This document shows positions 51,065-56,743 of a stretch of 64,000 nt of DNA, one piece after another. Origin of the DNA: Gluconobacter potus (GTDB taxonomy: Bacteria; Pseudomonadota; Alphaproteobacteria; Acetobacterales; Acetobacteraceae); assembly GCF_015244705.1 (NCBI RefSeq), contig NZ_JABCQF010000001.1, positions 620,001-684,000 of the forward strand, read 5' to 3'. Each line of letters begins with the position of its first letter. Position 1 is the stretch's first letter. The notes under the pieces are model-generated. The model made no database searches. It worked only from the letters and a program-made list of their open reading frames with translations, and was not told the DNA's origin. Position numbers and translations under genes: made by a program.

Positions 51065-52180
51065 ATGACTGCTTCCGCTCCTTCCGCCGCCCCTGATGCG
51101 CCTGCCGCAGCACCCCCGAACCGTGTCCTGAAACCCATCGACCTGGGGCAGGGCGTAGTGATCGAGGAACCGGTGATCCTTGCTCCGCTTTCGGGTGTCA
51201 CGGATCTGCCGTTCCGTCAGCTTGCCCGCGATCTCGGGGCAGGGCTGGTCGTGTCGGAAATGATCGCCTCCTGGGCGATGATCCGCGAGAATGAAAACAC
51301 CATGCGCATGGCGCGGATGGCCGAGCGCGGGCCGAATGCGGTCCAGCTTGCCGGATGTGATCCCGAGGCCATGGCGCAGGCTGCGAAGATTTCGGTGGAT
51401 GGGGGCGCGAACCTCATCGACATCAATTTCGGCTGCCCGGTGAAGAAAGTCGCGATTGGGCAGATGGCCGGATCGGCGCTGATGCGGGACGAGGTTCTGG
51501 CCGGAAAGTTGCTCGAAGCGACCGCACGGGCCGTGAATGTGCCCGTGACACTCAAGATGCGCATGGGCTGGGACCACAATTCGCTCAATGCGCCGCGTCT
51601 GGCGAAAATCGCGGAAGAGAGCGGCATCCGGCTTGTGACGGTTCACGGTCGCACGCGGCAGATGTTTTATAACGGTACGGCGGACTGGCGTTTCGTCAAA
51701 ACGGTGAAGGATGCGGTGTCGCTGCCAGTCATTGTCAATGGCGATATCAACACCATCCGCGACGCACGTGAGGCGCTGCATCAGTCTCAGGCCGATGGCG
51801 TCATGATCGGGCGCGGCTGTTACGGGCGGCCCTGGTTCACGGCGCAGGTGGCGCAGTCCCTGCGGACCGGCGAGGATGTGCCTGACCCGGATCTGGCGAC
51901 CGAAAAGGAAATCGCCTTGCGGCATTACCGGATGATGCTTGATCATTTCGGTGAGCGGCCGGGCCTGCGTCTCGCGCGCAAGCATGTGTCCTGGTACTCC
52001 GCCGGGCTGCCGGGGTCTGCGACGTTCCGCTCCACCATCAATGGTGTGGAAAGCGCCGCCGAGGCCATCGCTCTGCTAACTGCGTTCTACGATCGCCATA
52101 TCGACGCCGGTGTCGTGCGCAACCGTGAGGCCGGCCCCACGGGCAGTCTGAGCCGCGACGGCACGCGTGAAGCGGCCTGA
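51065..52180 (+). CDS. dusB: tRNA-dihydrouridine synthase (NifR3/DusB)
   Basis: 371 residues after an Ala/Pro-rich leader of about 20. [38 protein letters not shown] with the catalytic Cys (about 124), [18 protein letters not shown] and [13 protein letters not shown] are the FMN and tRNA-binding motifs. Reduces uridine in tRNA D-loops. The order nifR3-ntrBC-ntrYX-hfq-hflX is classical for Alphaproteobacteria, but ntrB is missing here. Confidence 0.94.
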
Positions 52181-52204: not shown

Positions 52205-52945
52205 ATGGCAGCCATGACGGAGCCGTCCGCTTCAGGTCTGGTCGAACAGGGTTGCCATCCGGTTTTCCTGTATGGCGCGTCCCGGCTGGACCGGCAGGAC
52301 GTCGCCCGGCGGCTTCACAGTCATAGCCCGCGGGCACAAAATCCGTTCGTGATTGCCGCCCTGACCGCCACTCCGCGTGCGCTTCGTGAGGCGGCTCTCT
52401 TCGGCAACGGCGAGGCTGGCTGGATCCAGCAGGCTCAGGGCGGAACGCTGCTGCTGGATGAGATCGACTGTCTGTGCCCGCTGATGCAGGATCGGTTCAT
52501 GGACTGGCTGGCCCAGGATGAGACGGATCTGCGTGTGATCGCGGGGAGCCGTCATGATCCTGTTCTTCTGCTCCGGCAGGGAGGTCTGTCCGCTGCCCTG
52601 CATCGCTGGCTGTCGGCGCTGCCCTCTGCCCAGCGGCTGGGGCCGGAGCGGATCAGCGCGGTCTGTCGCCTGGCGGCAGGTACGGGCACGGCGCGTCCCC
52701 GCGGGCTGGAACGCGCGCTGGAACGGCCGCTTGCTGAATATCTTGAGGGCGATCTGGAAAACGGGGCGGGCGATCTGCATGCCTGTGTGGTGGGTGAGGT
52801 CGAGCGGCCGCTGATCACGATGGTTCTGCGCCGGACCTGCGGCAACCAGTTGCGCGCTGCCGCCATTCTGGGTGTAAACCGCAACACCCTGCGCAAGCGC
52901 ATCCGTGAACTGGATATCACGATCCCGAAAGGCATCGACGAGTGA
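52205..52945 (+). CDS. degenerate NtrC-like protein (no receiver, broken AAA+)
   Basis: 246 residues at the position of ntrC. It keeps a shrunken sigma-54-activator-like ATPase (VFLYGASRLDRQDVARRLHS; Walker B in GGTLLLDEID) and a Fis-type helix-turn-helix at the end (NQLRAAAILGVNRNTLRKRI). The Walker A lysine is replaced, the GAFTGA loop has become FGNGEAGWIQQA, and there is no receiver domain. It therefore should neither hydrolyse ATP nor contact sigma-54 normally; it may be a DNA-binding relic with a new role. The start may be 52205 or 52214. ATGA overlap with ntrY. Confidence 0.72.
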   Translation: MAAMTEPSASGLVEQGCHPVFLYGASRLDRQDVARRLHSHSPRAQNPFVIAALTATPRALREAALFGNGEAGWIQQAQGGTLLLDEIDCLCPLMQDRFMDWLAQDETDLRVIAGSRHDPVLLLRQGGLSAALHRWLSALPSAQRLGPERISAVCRLAAGTGTARPRGLERALERPLAEYLEGDLENGAGDLHACVVGEVERPLITMVLRRTCGNQLRAAAILGVNRNTLRKRIRELDITIPKGIDE

Positions 52946-55341
52946 GACTTCCTTCCCTGAGGCGCCTGTTTGCAAGGCTGACGAGTGCCAATGGGGCGGT
53001 TCTTCTGACAGTCATGGCGCTGGTGCTCGCCTTTGCGACGTTCGTCGTACTGTCGGGGGGCATGTCTCTGGCGCATCGCCCGCAGGTGCAGGCGATTGTC
53101 TTCCTGCTCGACTTCATCATGCTCATGCTGATCGCGGCAGCGGCCGTGGTGCAGATCGGGCGGATGCTGGCCGAACGCAGGCTCGGTCTGGCCGGTGCAC
53201 GCCTGCATGTGCGGCTTATTACACTGTTCGGCATCGTGGCGGTCGCTCCGACCATCGTGGTGGGCGCGGTGGCGACGCTGTTCTTCCATTATGGCGTGGA
53301 AATCTGGTTCTCCAACCGCGTGAATGATGCGCTGAACGAGGCGCGTTCGGTCGCGGTCGGATATCTGCGCGAACACAATGACAATGCCCGGACAGAGGCT
53401 TTCGCGCTCGCGAACACACTGATCACCGTCCAGAACGATGAACTGTTCTCGCGTGGGACCGATCTTTTCCACGACCCCGCACGTCTTCAGGAATTCCTGG
53501 ACGATGAAGTCACCGAGCGTGGCCTGACGGATGCGGAAGTCTTCGATCCGCTGACGTACAAGGTTCTGGCGGTCGGTGGTCTTCTGGGCAGCGACGCGGA
53601 TATGACGACGGCGCCACCTCTGCCGCCGAAATCGGTTGTCGAACTGGCCCAGCATGGCGAGGCGGTCATCCTTGACCGGCCGGATCAGCGGAAAGTGCGC
53701 GCCGTGGTGGCGCTGGGGGGCAATTCGGGCCTCATGCTGGTCATCACGCGCCCGGTCGATCCGGATGTCGTGGAACACATGCGCCGCACGGATACGCTGG
53801 TGGCGGATTACCAGCGGCTGATTACCAATCGCGGCAAGACGCAGGTCCTGTTCGCGGTCATTTTCGCCCTGATGGGGCTGCTGGTTCTGGCCGTCGGGAT
53901 GCTGACCGGGCTGGCGCTGGCCAATCGTATCGCCAACCCGCTCGGATTGCTCATTTTGGCAGCCCAGCGGATTTCCAAGGGCGATCTGGGTGTGCGGGTT
54001 CCGGTCCCCGACGATGCGGGGCAGGACAAGGACGATGAAGTGACGGGCTTGTCCCGCGCTTTCAATAGCATGACGGACCAGCTCGAAAGCCAGCGCTCCG
54101 AACTGATGCAGGCCTATGACCAGATCAACGAGCGCCGGCGCTTTACCGAGACCGTGCTGGCAGGCGTTTCGGCTGGTGTGATCGGGCTGGACCGGATGCA
54201 GGTCATCGAACTGCCCAATCGCGCGGCGTCCAGCGTGCTCCAGCGCGATCTCCAGCCGGCCATCGGGATGAAGCTGACGGATCGGGTTCCGGAGTTCTCG
54301 GGTCTTCTGGAAGCCGCGCGCATGGCGCCGGAACGCGTTCATACCGCTGAAATCCAGGTGGACACGGAGGGCGCGCAGCGTCCGGGTGGACCGGGTGAAG
54401 GCGCGGGGGCGGGGGCGGGGCGGACGCTTCTCGTGCGGGTCGTGGCGGAGCTGCGGGGGCAGGACGTCGCGGGTTATGTCGTGACCTTCGATGACATCAC
54501 GGATCTTCAGTCCGCACAGCGTAAGGCCGCCTGGGCGGATGTGGCACGGCGTGTGGCGCATGAGATCAAGAATCCTCTGACCCCGATCCAGCTTGCTGCG
54601 GAGCGTCTCAAGCGACGATTCCTCAAGGAAATCCACTCCGATCCCGAGACCTATACCCAGCTTGTGGACACGATCGTGCGGCAGGTGGGCGATATCGGAC
54701 GCATGGTTGACGAGTTCTCGGCGTTTGCGCGGATGCCGCAGCCCGTCATGCAGCCGGAAGACTTCTCGCGCCTGTGCCGGGAGGCGCTGGTGCTCCAGCG
54801 GAACGCTCATCCCGAAATCGTGTTCGAGACGAGTGGACTGCCCCCTTCAGGGCCGATCGTGCGCTGTGACCGGCGACTTATCAGCCAGGCCCTGACAAAC
54901 CTTCTGCAGAATGCCGCTGATGCCATTAGTATGGCAGGCCGCGGAAAACCGGGAGAAAATGCGTCCGGGCAGCCAGCGGGACAGGTAGTGCAGCCAATTG
55001 GACACATTGTGGTGGGCTTGCACATTCACGGCGGGCATGTCCTGCTAGACATAGAAGATGACGGGATCGGCCTGCCGACGGTGGAACGCCACCGGCTGAC
55101 CGAGCCTTATGTAACCCACAAGGCGAAGGGCACCGGCCTCGGCCTTGCGATCGTCAAGAAGATCATGGAGGACCATTCCGGGATGCTTCAGCTCACTGAT
55201 CGGGAACCAGACCAGTCCCGCGGCGCCTCGCCCAGGCAGCGGGGAACGCGTGTCACCCTGTCCCTGCCGTTATGGGAGCAGGAGAGCCATGTTTTGGGCG
55301 GAATGGACCTTCAGACCATGAGGATAGCAGATGGAACATGA
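52942..55341 (+). CDS. ntrY: sensor histidine kinase NtrY
   Basis: 799 residues. Three or four N-terminal membrane helices flank a periplasmic loop (about 100-300), then a HAMP segment (NRIANPLGLLILAAQRISKG), a PAS-like region, the H-box VAHEIKNPLTPIQL with His about 540, and ATPase boxes (LISQALTNLLQNAADAI; DDGIGLP; GTGLGLAIVKKI). Membrane kinase for NtrX, linked to nitrogen and redox status in other Alphaproteobacteria. A Gly-Ala rich insertion (about 485-495) comes from GC-rich repeats. Overlaps ntrX by 11 bases. Confidence 0.93.
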   Translation: MRLPSLRRLFARLTSANGAVLLTVMALVLAFATFVVLSGGMSLAHRPQVQAIVFLLDFIMLMLIAAAAVVQIGRMLAERRLGLAGARLHVRLITLFGIVAVAPTIVVGAVATLFFHYGVEIWFSNRVNDALNEARSVAVGYLREHNDNARTEAFALANTLITVQNDELFSRGTDLFHDPARLQEFLDDEVTERGLTDAEVFDPLTYKVLAVGGLLGSDADMTTAPPLPPKSVVELAQHGEAVILDRPDQRKVRAVVALGGNSGLMLVITRPVDPDVVEHMRRTDTLVADYQRLITNRGKTQVLFAVIFALMGLLVLAVGMLTGLALANRIANPLGLLILAAQRISKGDLGVRVPVPDDAGQDKDDEVTGLSRAFNSMTDQLESQRSELMQAYDQINERRRFTETVLAGVSAGVIGLDRMQVIELPNRAASSVLQRDLQPAIGMKLTDRVPEFSGLLEAARMAPERVHTAEIQVDTEGAQRPGGPGEGAGAGAGRTLLVRVVAELRGQDVAGYVVTFDDITDLQSAQRKAAWADVARRVAHEIKNPLTPIQLAAERLKRRFLKEIHSDPETYTQLVDTIVRQVGDIGRMVDEFSAFARMPQPVMQPEDFSRLCREALVLQRNAHPEIVFETSGLPPSGPIVRCDRRLISQALTNLLQNAADAISMAGRGKPGENASGQPAGQVVQPIGHIVVGLHIHGGHVLLDIEDDGIGLPTVERHRLTEPYVTHKAKGTGLGLAIVKKIMEDHSGMLQLTDREPDQSRGASPRQRGTRVTLSLPLWEQESHVLGGMDLQTMRIADGT

Positions 55342-56743
55342 GATCCTGATCGTCGATGACGAACCGGACATCCGGTTTCTCATCGAGGGCATTCTGAACG
55401 ACGAGGGCTACAAGACCCGCACGGCCGCCAATTCAGATCAGGCGCTCGAACTCTTCCGTGCGCATTGTCCGTCGCTGGCGATTCTGGATATCTGGCTTCA
55501 GGGATCCCGGCTGGACGGGATCGAACTGCTCAAGATCTTCCAGACCGAGGAGCCGGGTCTGCCGACGCTGATGATTTCGGGTCATGGAACCATCGAGACG
55601 GCGGTGTCCAGCCTCAAGCTCGGGGCCTATGATTTCATCGAGAAGCCGTTCCAGTCGGACCGGCTTCTGGTCGTGGTGCGCCGTGCGCTGGAAGCCGCGC
55701 GTTTGCGGCGGGAAAATGCGGAACTGCGTCTGCGGGCCGGTCCGGAGACGACGCTGTCGGGGGACGGCGCCGTCATTTCGGCCGTTCGCGCCCAGATCGA
55801 GCGTGTTGCCCCCACCAATTCCCGCGTGCTGATCAGCGGTCCGGCCGGATCGGGCAAGGAAGTCGCGGCCCGCATGATCCATGCGCGCTCCCGCCGTGCG
55901 GAAGGGCCCTTCATTGCCCTGAACTGCGCAACACTGGCACCGAACCGCTTTGAAGAAGAACTCTTCGGCCTTGAAGGCGAAGACGGCCAGCCGATGCGCC
56001 GCGGCGTGCTGGAGCGGGCCCATCGCGGGACGCTTCTGCTGGACGAGGTCGCGGATATGCCGCCCGAGACGCAGGGCAAGATCGTCCGTGCGCTTCAGGA
56101 CCAGACATTCGAGCGTCTGGGCGGCAATACGCGGGTGAAAGTGGACATCCGTGTCATCGCCACCACCAACCGGGATCTCCAGTCGGAGATCGCCGCGCAC
56201 CGGTTCCGCGAAGACCTGTATTACCGCCTTGCGGTTGTCCCTCTGCGCATTCCGTCCCTGCGCGAACGGCGCGAGGATATTCCCGGTCTGGCGCGGCACT
56301 TCCTGGAGCGTTGCGCGCAGTCTTCCGGCCTTCCGGTCCGGGAGCTTTCCGTGGATGCGCTTGCCGCGCTGCAATCCTATGAATGGCCGGGCAATGTGCG
56401 TGAATTGCGCAATCTGATGGAACGGCTGCTGATCATGATGCCGGGGACGGGCAACGATCCGATCCGGGCGGACATGCTGCCGGCCACCATCAGCCAGGGT
56501 GCGCCCTCGATGACGCGTCTCAATTCCGGAGCGGATGTCATGAGTCTGCCGCTGCGGGAGGCGCGGGACCTGTTCGAGACGCAGTATCTTCAGGTGCAGC
56601 TCATGCGGTTTGGCGGCAATATCAGCCGGACGGCCAGCTTCGTCTGCATGGAGCGCAGTGCGCTGCACCGCAAGCTCAAGCAGCTTGGGGTGACGACGAA
56701 TGAAGAGCGCAATGCCGCATCTTCCACCCCGGTGAGTGGCTGA
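55331..56743 (+). CDS. ntrX: response regulator NtrX
   Basis: 470 residues. Receiver domain with phospho-acceptor Asp53 (LAILDIWLQ), AAA+ domain with intact Walker A (ISGPAGSGKEVAARM) and Walker B (GTLLLDEVADMPP), and a Fis-type C terminus (GGNISRTASFVCMERSALHRKL). The GAFTGA loop for sigma-54 contact is absent (LFGLEGEDGQPMRRG), as is common for NtrX proteins, so it probably does not activate sigma-54 promoters in the standard way. Partner of NtrY. Confidence 0.93.
   Translation: MEHEILIVDDEPDIRFLIEGILNDEGYKTRTAANSDQALELFRAHCPSLAILDIWLQGSRLDGIELLKIFQTEEPGLPTLMISGHGTIETAVSSLKLGAYDFIEKPFQSDRLLVVVRRALEAARLRRENAELRLRAGPETTLSGDGAVISAVRAQIERVAPTNSRVLISGPAGSGKEVAARMIHARSRRAEGPFIALNCATLAPNRFEEELFGLEGEDGQPMRRGVLERAHRGTLLLDEVADMPPETQGKIVRALQDQTFERLGGNTRVKVDIRVIATTNRDLQSEIAAHRFREDLYYRLAVVPLRIPSLRERREDIPGLARHFLERCAQSSGLPVRELSVDALAALQSYEWPGNVRELRNLMERLLIMMPGTGNDPIRADMLPATISQGAPSMTRLNSGADVMSLPLREARDLFETQYLQVQLMRFGGNISRTASFVCMERSALHRKLKQLGVTTNEERNAASSTPVSG

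Follow-up and report, generated by a model that had tools for sequence, protein, structure and literature searches.

A reduced NtrC between dusB and ntrY in Gluconobacter and its place in a graded series of NtrC forms in acetic acid bacteria

Fis is a textbook nucleoid protein, and its origin from NtrC was reportedly proposed by Morett and Bork in 1998. In E. coli K-12, fis lies directly after dusB. According to the available part of one study, the full-length NtrC of Caulobacter, which lacks GAFTGA, both activates and represses, and its authors inferred action at sigma70 promoters (PMC10274813). The same part of that source relates its ChIP motif to the E. coli motifs for Fis and NtrC, and reports that the protein needs its Walker residues and that engineered versions deleted for the receiver or the AAA domain were worse than a null mutant in complex medium, being perhaps dominant-negative in the authors' view (PMC10274813). 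For Rhodobacter capsulatus NtrC, phosphorylation and ATP binding are described there as necessary (PMC10274813). Therefore, loss of GAFTGA alone leaves NtrC dependent on ATP. In the accessible portion of another study, ntrBC was in the same locus at 674 of 917 ntrYX loci, so ntrYX loci lacking ntrBC are already known as such (PMC9409073). No published reduced NtrC from acetic acid bacteria was found in a literature search by titles and abstract openings.

The reduced ntrC gene of the Gluconobacter locus

The window analyzed here is a stretch of 64,000 nucleotides from Gluconobacter potus. Its genes of interest follow the order dusB, the reduced ntrC (referred to as the relic henceforth), ntrY, ntrX, hfq, and an hflX-like open reading frame (ORF), with hflX assigned by eye (Table 1). 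The earlier note had claimed that a 246-residue protein stands alone at the usual ntrBC position and is coupled to ntrY; indeed, a single ORF separates dusB from ntrY, and its stop codon overlaps the ntrY start by four bases (GTGA). That the gene is still expressed, as the earlier note put it, is presumed from this overlap. We infer that dusB, the relic, ntrY, and ntrX form one operon. The gap between dusB and the relic is 24 bp, compared with 25 bp between dusB and fis in E. coli K-12. Because this spacing is so short, no receiver is concealed upstream of the relic, and a hidden receiver or frameshift 5' of the gene was ruled out. The start may lie three codons further on (52214), as some orthologues open with MTE. 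At the protein level, the counterparts from G. vitians, G. oxydans, and G. roseus were 98% identical to it.

Table 1. Features of the dusB-ntrX region, in window coordinates
Feature	Coordinates	Strand	Evidence
dusB / nifR3, tRNA-dihydrouridine synthase B	51065..52180	+	TIGR00737 383 bits, cut-off 293
Reduced NtrC ("relic"), 246 aa	52205..52945	+	ORF; Pfam; TIGR01818 ntrC 96 bits vs cut-off 558.6
AAA+ core remnant, residues 14-140, without lid or arginine-finger region	52244..52624	+	Alignments; AF2 model
Former Walker A, GASRLDRQ, Lys to Arg30	52274..52297	+	R30 invariant, 24/24 aligned short forms
FGNGEAGWIQQA, site of deleted L1/GAFTGA loop, new invariant Trp73	52400..52435	+	Alignments; GAFTGA in 0/46 short loci
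Walker-B-like LLLDEID	52448..52468	+	Glu86 invariant, Asp85 22/24
Dimerisation and DNA-binding domain of Fis/NtrC type (residues 168-240)	52706..52924	+	HTH_8 46 bits; NCBIfam Fis 54.7 bits
Helix-turn-helix GNQLRAAAILGVNRNTLRKRIRE	52841..52909	+	NRNTLRK in 46/46 short and 33/33 full loci
GTGA overlap of ntrY start and relic stop	52942..52945	+	Sequence
ntrY sensor kinase, start GTG	52942..55341	+	NtrY_N 119 bits
ntrX response regulator, likewise without GAFTGA	55331..56743	+	NF051870 691.6 bits, cut-off 600; sequence

In Pfam searches, relic residues 18-106 partially matched Sigma54_activat (47.2 bits) and residues 197-235 matched Fis HTH_8 (46 bits against 22). Response_reg gave nothing up to an E of 1; the receiver region was a gap in every short row of the NtrC alignment. 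The GESGTGKE of full NtrC reads GASRLDRQ in the relic, which departs from the Walker A pattern GxxGxGK and places Arg30 at the lysine position. NRNTLRK, the recognition helix, is intact. Thus, as predicted from the sequence beforehand, the receiver, the Walker A lysine, and GAFTGA are missing, and Walker B and an intact-looking helix-turn-helix are present. The AF2 model reached a pLDDT of 81-94 per ten-residue block across residues 21-150, and its best PDB match by Foldseek was NtrX (5m7n, E 5e-10). With 96.3 bits for TIGR01818 ntrC and 54.7 bits for NF001659 Fis, the relic scored under both cut-offs (558.6 and 99, respectively). Its gene has the position described for fis, directly after dusB; its 246 aa exceed the single domain of about 98 aa described for Fis.

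Six Sigma54_activat matches were found in the genome, namely the relic, NtrX, a PspF-like activator adjoining a PspA gene, and three Clp-type AAA_2 ATPases; with all six assigned, no further NtrC was found. No NtrB orthologue was detected in the genome either: the best match, within an open frame of 681 aa, scored 77 bits, and three genomes possessing NtrB gave 243-816 bits. The absence of NtrB stated in the earlier note therefore stood, and a search for a complete ntrBC pair elsewhere in the genome found none. The PspF-like gene (G000:C1:11290-11775, L001) was the sole GAFTGA-bearing activator seen in this genome and may be the reason why rpoN was retained there.

Conservation of the relic and the series of NtrC forms

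Relic orthologues were present in 26 of the 26 genomes of the genus searched (E 2.4e-50 or better), all as matches without internal stops, and in 21 loci beyond the window the gene was seen to lie between dusB and ntrY. dN/dS was calculated as a ratio of sums over the 190 pairs of 20 Gluconobacter sequences, after pairs with dS outside 0.1-1.5 had been dropped. Values were 0.076 for the AAA+ remnant (90/190 pairs usable), 0.080 for the middle part, 0.065 for the Fis part (158/190), and 0.092 for the whole relic; ntrY, at 0.066 (163/190), was close to the AAA+ remnant, and dusB was at 0.044 (144/190). Random decay of the relic was ruled out by these ratios, and the comparison of orthologues that had been proposed thus revealed purifying selection. 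An alignment of 24 short forms (13 belong to the genus) showed no variation in Arg30, in Trp73, which stands where the L1 loop was deleted, in Glu86 of Walker B, or in NRNTLRK. Given the low dN/dS and the invariant Arg30, Trp73, and Glu86, the AAA+ remnant is a retained, altered domain. The earlier description of the AAA+ domain as broken overlooks what matters most, namely that the protein represents one step in a conserved staircase leading from NtrC towards a Fis-sized protein.

This staircase was read at the dusB-ntrY slot of 84 loci, comprising 60 genomes of the family and 24 further loci; the 60 had been picked from the 385 of 397 genomes with an ntrY match, for the most part because their NtrY was closest to that of the window. 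The steps run from a full NtrB-NtrC pair through a degenerate NtrC with NtrB, a form of 309-349 aa without NtrB and receiver, a form of about 245 aa, to which the relic of the window belongs, and a 95-aa protein consisting of the Fis domain only, to no gene at all. Full-length NtrC (459-531 aa) was found at 33/84 loci and a short form (95-349 aa) at 46/84, 25 of those outside the genus. The short form of L113 measures 207 aa by its first start; because its NtrC match begins 5' of that start, it probably belongs among the 309-349-aa forms. At 2/84 loci (L127, L128), dusB directly preceded ntrY with no relic. In L147 (G280) and L148 (G068), ntrY had neither dusB nor NtrC as a neighbour within the sequence read; these are either rearranged loci or further losses. 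L089 had no ntrY (1/84). GAFTGA was intact in 20 of the 33 full loci and in none of the 46 short ones; the Walker A lysine was kept in four 309-349-aa forms (L098, L105, L107, L114). The degenerate step is exemplified by G121 (L115), in which NtrB is present; the receiver of its NtrC is trimmed, and the Walker A lysine, GAFTGA, and Walker B are all missing.

Two side observations concern the ends of this series. GAFTGA was lost in 13 of the 33 full NtrC proteins (L115, L122, L126, L129-L132, L137, L138, L140, L142-L144), and the two genomes without the gene (G188 and G054, for L127 and L128) are small and sit on long branches, with a very divergent P-II upstream of amtB in G054.

A FastTree phylogeny of DusB plus NtrY was built from 66 sequences and 1075 columns, leaving out 17 of the 24 further loci as well as L147 and L148, and entering L124 without DusB. 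In this tree, the NtrB-less forms made up one clade, with a local support of 0.97 and G121 as its sister, which supports a single origin of the NtrB-less form. One of its subclades keeps the lid (309-349 aa) and includes the 95-aa form of G050; the other holds the forms of about 245 aa, including Gluconobacter, together with the two gene-loss genomes, whose exact place is weakly supported. Because the short clade in its entirety represents a single lineage, counts of genomes within it are not independent.

At the Fis end of the series, G050 carries dusB followed by the 95-aa Fis-domain protein, and ntrY is kept. This protein matched E. coli Fis at E 5.5e-12, compared with 1.5e-4 for the DNA-binding domain of E. 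coli NtrC. The 31 best PDB matches of its AF2 model (pLDDT 83) were all Fis, at TM 0.59-0.77 and with Foldseek E of only 1.6e-3 to 2e-2. It has the size of Fis, and its NF001659 Fis score of 62.7 bits is below the cut-off of 99. As a control, the C-terminus of a full NtrC from a relative (L116) was compared with wild-type Fis and matched it at 4.1e-17 and 65 bits, better than the G050 form did (49 bits). Fis-likeness was therefore inherited from this kind of NtrC, which rules out that the 95-aa protein acquired its resemblance to Fis only once erosion had taken place.

When the 95-aa protein was used as a query against 385 genomes of the class, matches were obtained in 295. Among the matches listed, 70 genomes were picked, mostly small or weaker-matching ones plus three with short frames; in this selection, which does not represent the class fairly, the matching frame measured at most 160 aa in 51 genomes, 161-400 aa in 3, and more than 400 aa in 16, with some frames touching contig ends. 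In the best 30 loci read, dusB lay directly upstream of an 88-156-aa ORF in 17; with G076 and G108 added, the dusB-Fis order was seen in 19 genomes from 15 alphaproteobacterial families beyond Acetobacteraceae. The remaining 13 of the 30 included seven full NtrC genes and one locus at a contig end (L288). dusB was absent from L296, L303, and L312, and L315 had a dusB fragment 1.1 kb upstream. The last of the 13 was L286 of G465, from another alphaproteobacterial family (f58), where a reduced NtrC of 363 aa comes immediately after dusB, possibly a second staircase. E. coli DusB (L316) grouped with DusB of L286, L302, L308, and L309, which are Fis-only or mid forms, at a support of 0.97 in a midpoint-rooted tree with a single gammaproteobacterium, which is too weak to speak on the independence of the dusB-Fis families outside Acetobacteraceae.

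Sigma54, P-II, and the glnK-amtB promoter

The sigma54 DNA-binding domain was found in 45 of 80 genomes searched. It was missing in 20/51 relic-bearing genomes (5/26 of the genus and 15/25 others), and the relic is thus kept in the absence of sigma54. Among 26 full NtrC loci with a known rpoN state, GAFTGA was intact in 10/14 with rpoN and 3/12 without, counts that are uncorrected for relatedness. L121 (G449), L123 (G417), and L125 (G206) combined an NtrC with intact GAFTGA and a genome in which the sigma54 DNA-binding domain was not found.

P-II gave one match in each of the 22 relic-bearing genomes examined; of 23 NtrB-bearing genomes, 18 had two or three matches. In the genome of the window (G000), the P-II gene precedes amtB. 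One P-II gene, at G437:C1:1790769-1791994, gave matches in two different frames and seems to be disrupted.

The glnK promoter of G034, which has a full NtrC and rpoN, contains a perfect sigma54 site, TGGCACGAAAATTGCT. Upstream of P-II in 24/28 relic genomes, a block near CRTTATGARACTGGCAYGA was present with at most four mismatches, the exceptions being G004, G207, G133, and G142. Such a block was found in 0/44 P-II upstream regions of 23 NtrB genomes (fewest mismatches, 6), regions that mix glnB- and glnK-type genes and include one of only 75 bases, and in 0/1 genome without the relic. The block and the sigma54 -24 element have TGGCACGA in common, and the -12 element is erratic. On our reading, the glnK-amtB promoter may have switched from a sigma54 to a sigma70 form, and the correlation with the relic makes it a candidate target of the protein. 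However, the block was defined on the relic clade itself, in which it is shared by descent, and it may simply be the promoter. Promoter scoring consisted of home-made consensus counts without controls, and its sigma70 calls were not relied on.

Further occurrences of the block were also sought. Its 22-base form had no match in the window at three mismatches. A 19-base form gave 104 matches in 26 genomes, against 52 for the pattern read backwards, and the excess was seen in genomes without the relic too. All six zero-mismatch matches (G000, G008, G011, G033, G047, G220) and the single one-mismatch match (G050) lay upstream of P-II or amtB, as did only 2/7 of the matches with two mismatches. Because so few of the latter fit and relic-less genomes share the excess, a wider regulon reached through this block was dropped and none is claimed. 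By eye, the block bore no convincing resemblance to the classical Fis or NtrC consensus, and no conserved operators were seen upstream of dusB, just sigma70-like promoters.

Proposed role and comparison with known systems

The relic occupies the place of ntrBC, has lost the motifs listed above, is under purifying selection, descends within one clade, and stands in a graded series that leads to a Fis-sized protein. On balance, we think it probable that it is an in-place remnant of ntrC whose product is constitutively able to bind DNA and operates at sigma70 promoters, independently of phosphorylation, ATP, and sigma54. After loss of ntrB, the receiver, the ATPase motifs, and the sigma54-contact loop, ntrC would have been reduced in place, with selection keeping a DNA-binding domain of the Fis/NtrC type and, attached to it, a compact AAA+ core that is probably non-catalytic. 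The protein would act at sigma70 promoters as a repressor or architectural factor; DNA binding, dimerisation, the promoters, and repression are all predictions. Its output would follow its own level, as set by the dusB-relic-ntrY-ntrX operon, rather than phosphorylation or ATP. The AAA+ remnant may serve as a structural or protein-contact module, and a model of DNA binding only undersells it, because selection constrains it almost as strongly as the Fis part. An ATP-free mode of action would differ from that of Caulobacter NtrC, which needs its Walker residues. Most likely, the relic is a natural intermediate between NtrC and Fis.

The earlier note had offered two roles, a repressor or an accessory partner of NtrY/NtrX. 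A sigma54-independent DNA binder, for example a repressor, fits the 20/51 relic genomes without the sigma54 domain and the NRNTLRK found in 46/46 short forms, whereas the accessory role is weakened and now seems unlikely to us. There, the AAA+ remnant would pack with NtrX or tune NtrY, and the Fis domain would guide the complex to DNA. The four-base overlap with ntrY, the presence of ntrY after the relic in 19/19 Gluconobacter loci found through the relic itself, and the invariant residues within the AAA+ remnant all speak for such a partner. So does the top Foldseek match to NtrX, although shared AAA+ ancestry would produce this match anyway. However, ntrY persists without the relic in G054 and G188 (L127, L128), and G050 keeps ntrY though the AAA+ part is gone. 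Moreover, no ntrY match followed dusB-Fis within 1.5 kb at L305 and L311 or within 3 kb at L284, where a divergent or more distant ntrY is possible.

Two further explanations dispense with a retained ntrC function or with a local ntrC origin. If the relic were a selectively neutral leftover, a mere translational spacer for ntrY, the lost AAA+ motifs and the complete loss of the gene in two relatives (L127, L128) would be accounted for; the dN/dS of about 0.08 for the AAA+ remnant and 0.065 for the Fis part, the stop-free matches, and a helix-turn-helix kept across genera make this highly improbable, and we strongly disfavour it. The small Fis-like proteins could instead represent a horizontally moved fis rather than an eroded local ntrC, which we regard as quite improbable. 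It would agree with the collection of no graded series outside Acetobacteraceae except the 363-aa L286, and with the grouping of E. coli DusB with the DusB of four of those genomes (0.97, midpoint root, one gammaproteobacterium), but the intermediates of acetic acid bacteria occupy the same dusB-ntrY slot, and G050 is nested in a clade of forms retaining the AAA+ and lid parts.

Beyond the in-place remnant acting at sigma70 promoters, we tentatively entertain a broader possibility. Erosion of dusB-ntrBC to dusB-fis in place could have been repeated in Alphaproteobacteria, with acetic acid bacteria keeping the whole path. The conserved pseudo-AAA+ core of the relic, with its invariant Arg, Trp, and Glu, might then be a new domain, and the Fis domain might act alone without phosphorylation, ATP, or sigma54. 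Along this path, the glnK-amtB promoter would have lost its sigma54 form and might now be served by the reduced protein.

The series places graded NtrC intermediates in one genomic slot, beside dusB, the gene that precedes fis in E. coli, and so offers extant stages of a route by which Fis may have originated. How the losses were ordered, when sigma54 dependence ended, and where a signal-driven activator turned into a constitutive DNA-binding protein can now be tested in harmless organisms that are already available. For annotators, it is a warning that Gluconobacter, which is used industrially, lacks NtrBC.

The relic resembles NtrC NR(I) (TIGR01818) in the dusB-ntrBC-ntrYX locus, the traces of an AAA+ core, and the C-terminal Fis-type helix-turn-helix, but it has no receiver, NtrB, Walker A lysine, GAFTGA, or lid, is half as long, and scores far under the cut-off. 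With the GAFTGA-less NtrC of Caulobacter and Rhodobacter capsulatus it shares the deleted L1 loop, and the available part of the source reports or infers sigma70-type regulation for those proteins (PMC10274813); in contrast to them, as described there at full length and phosphorylated, the relic has lost the receiver, and its motifs are either absent or altered. Fis of E. coli and Pseudomonas is approached in the sequence of the helix-turn-helix and dimer helices, in the fold (for the 95-aa form), and, for E. coli, in the gene position right after dusB; unlike Fis, the relic still has about 125 aa of AAA+ remnant, and it stays below the NCBI Fis cut-off. The direction from NtrC to Fis is the same as that reportedly proposed by Morett and Bork (1998), whose title names horizontal transfer, whereas here the intermediates are in place and point to erosion in place.
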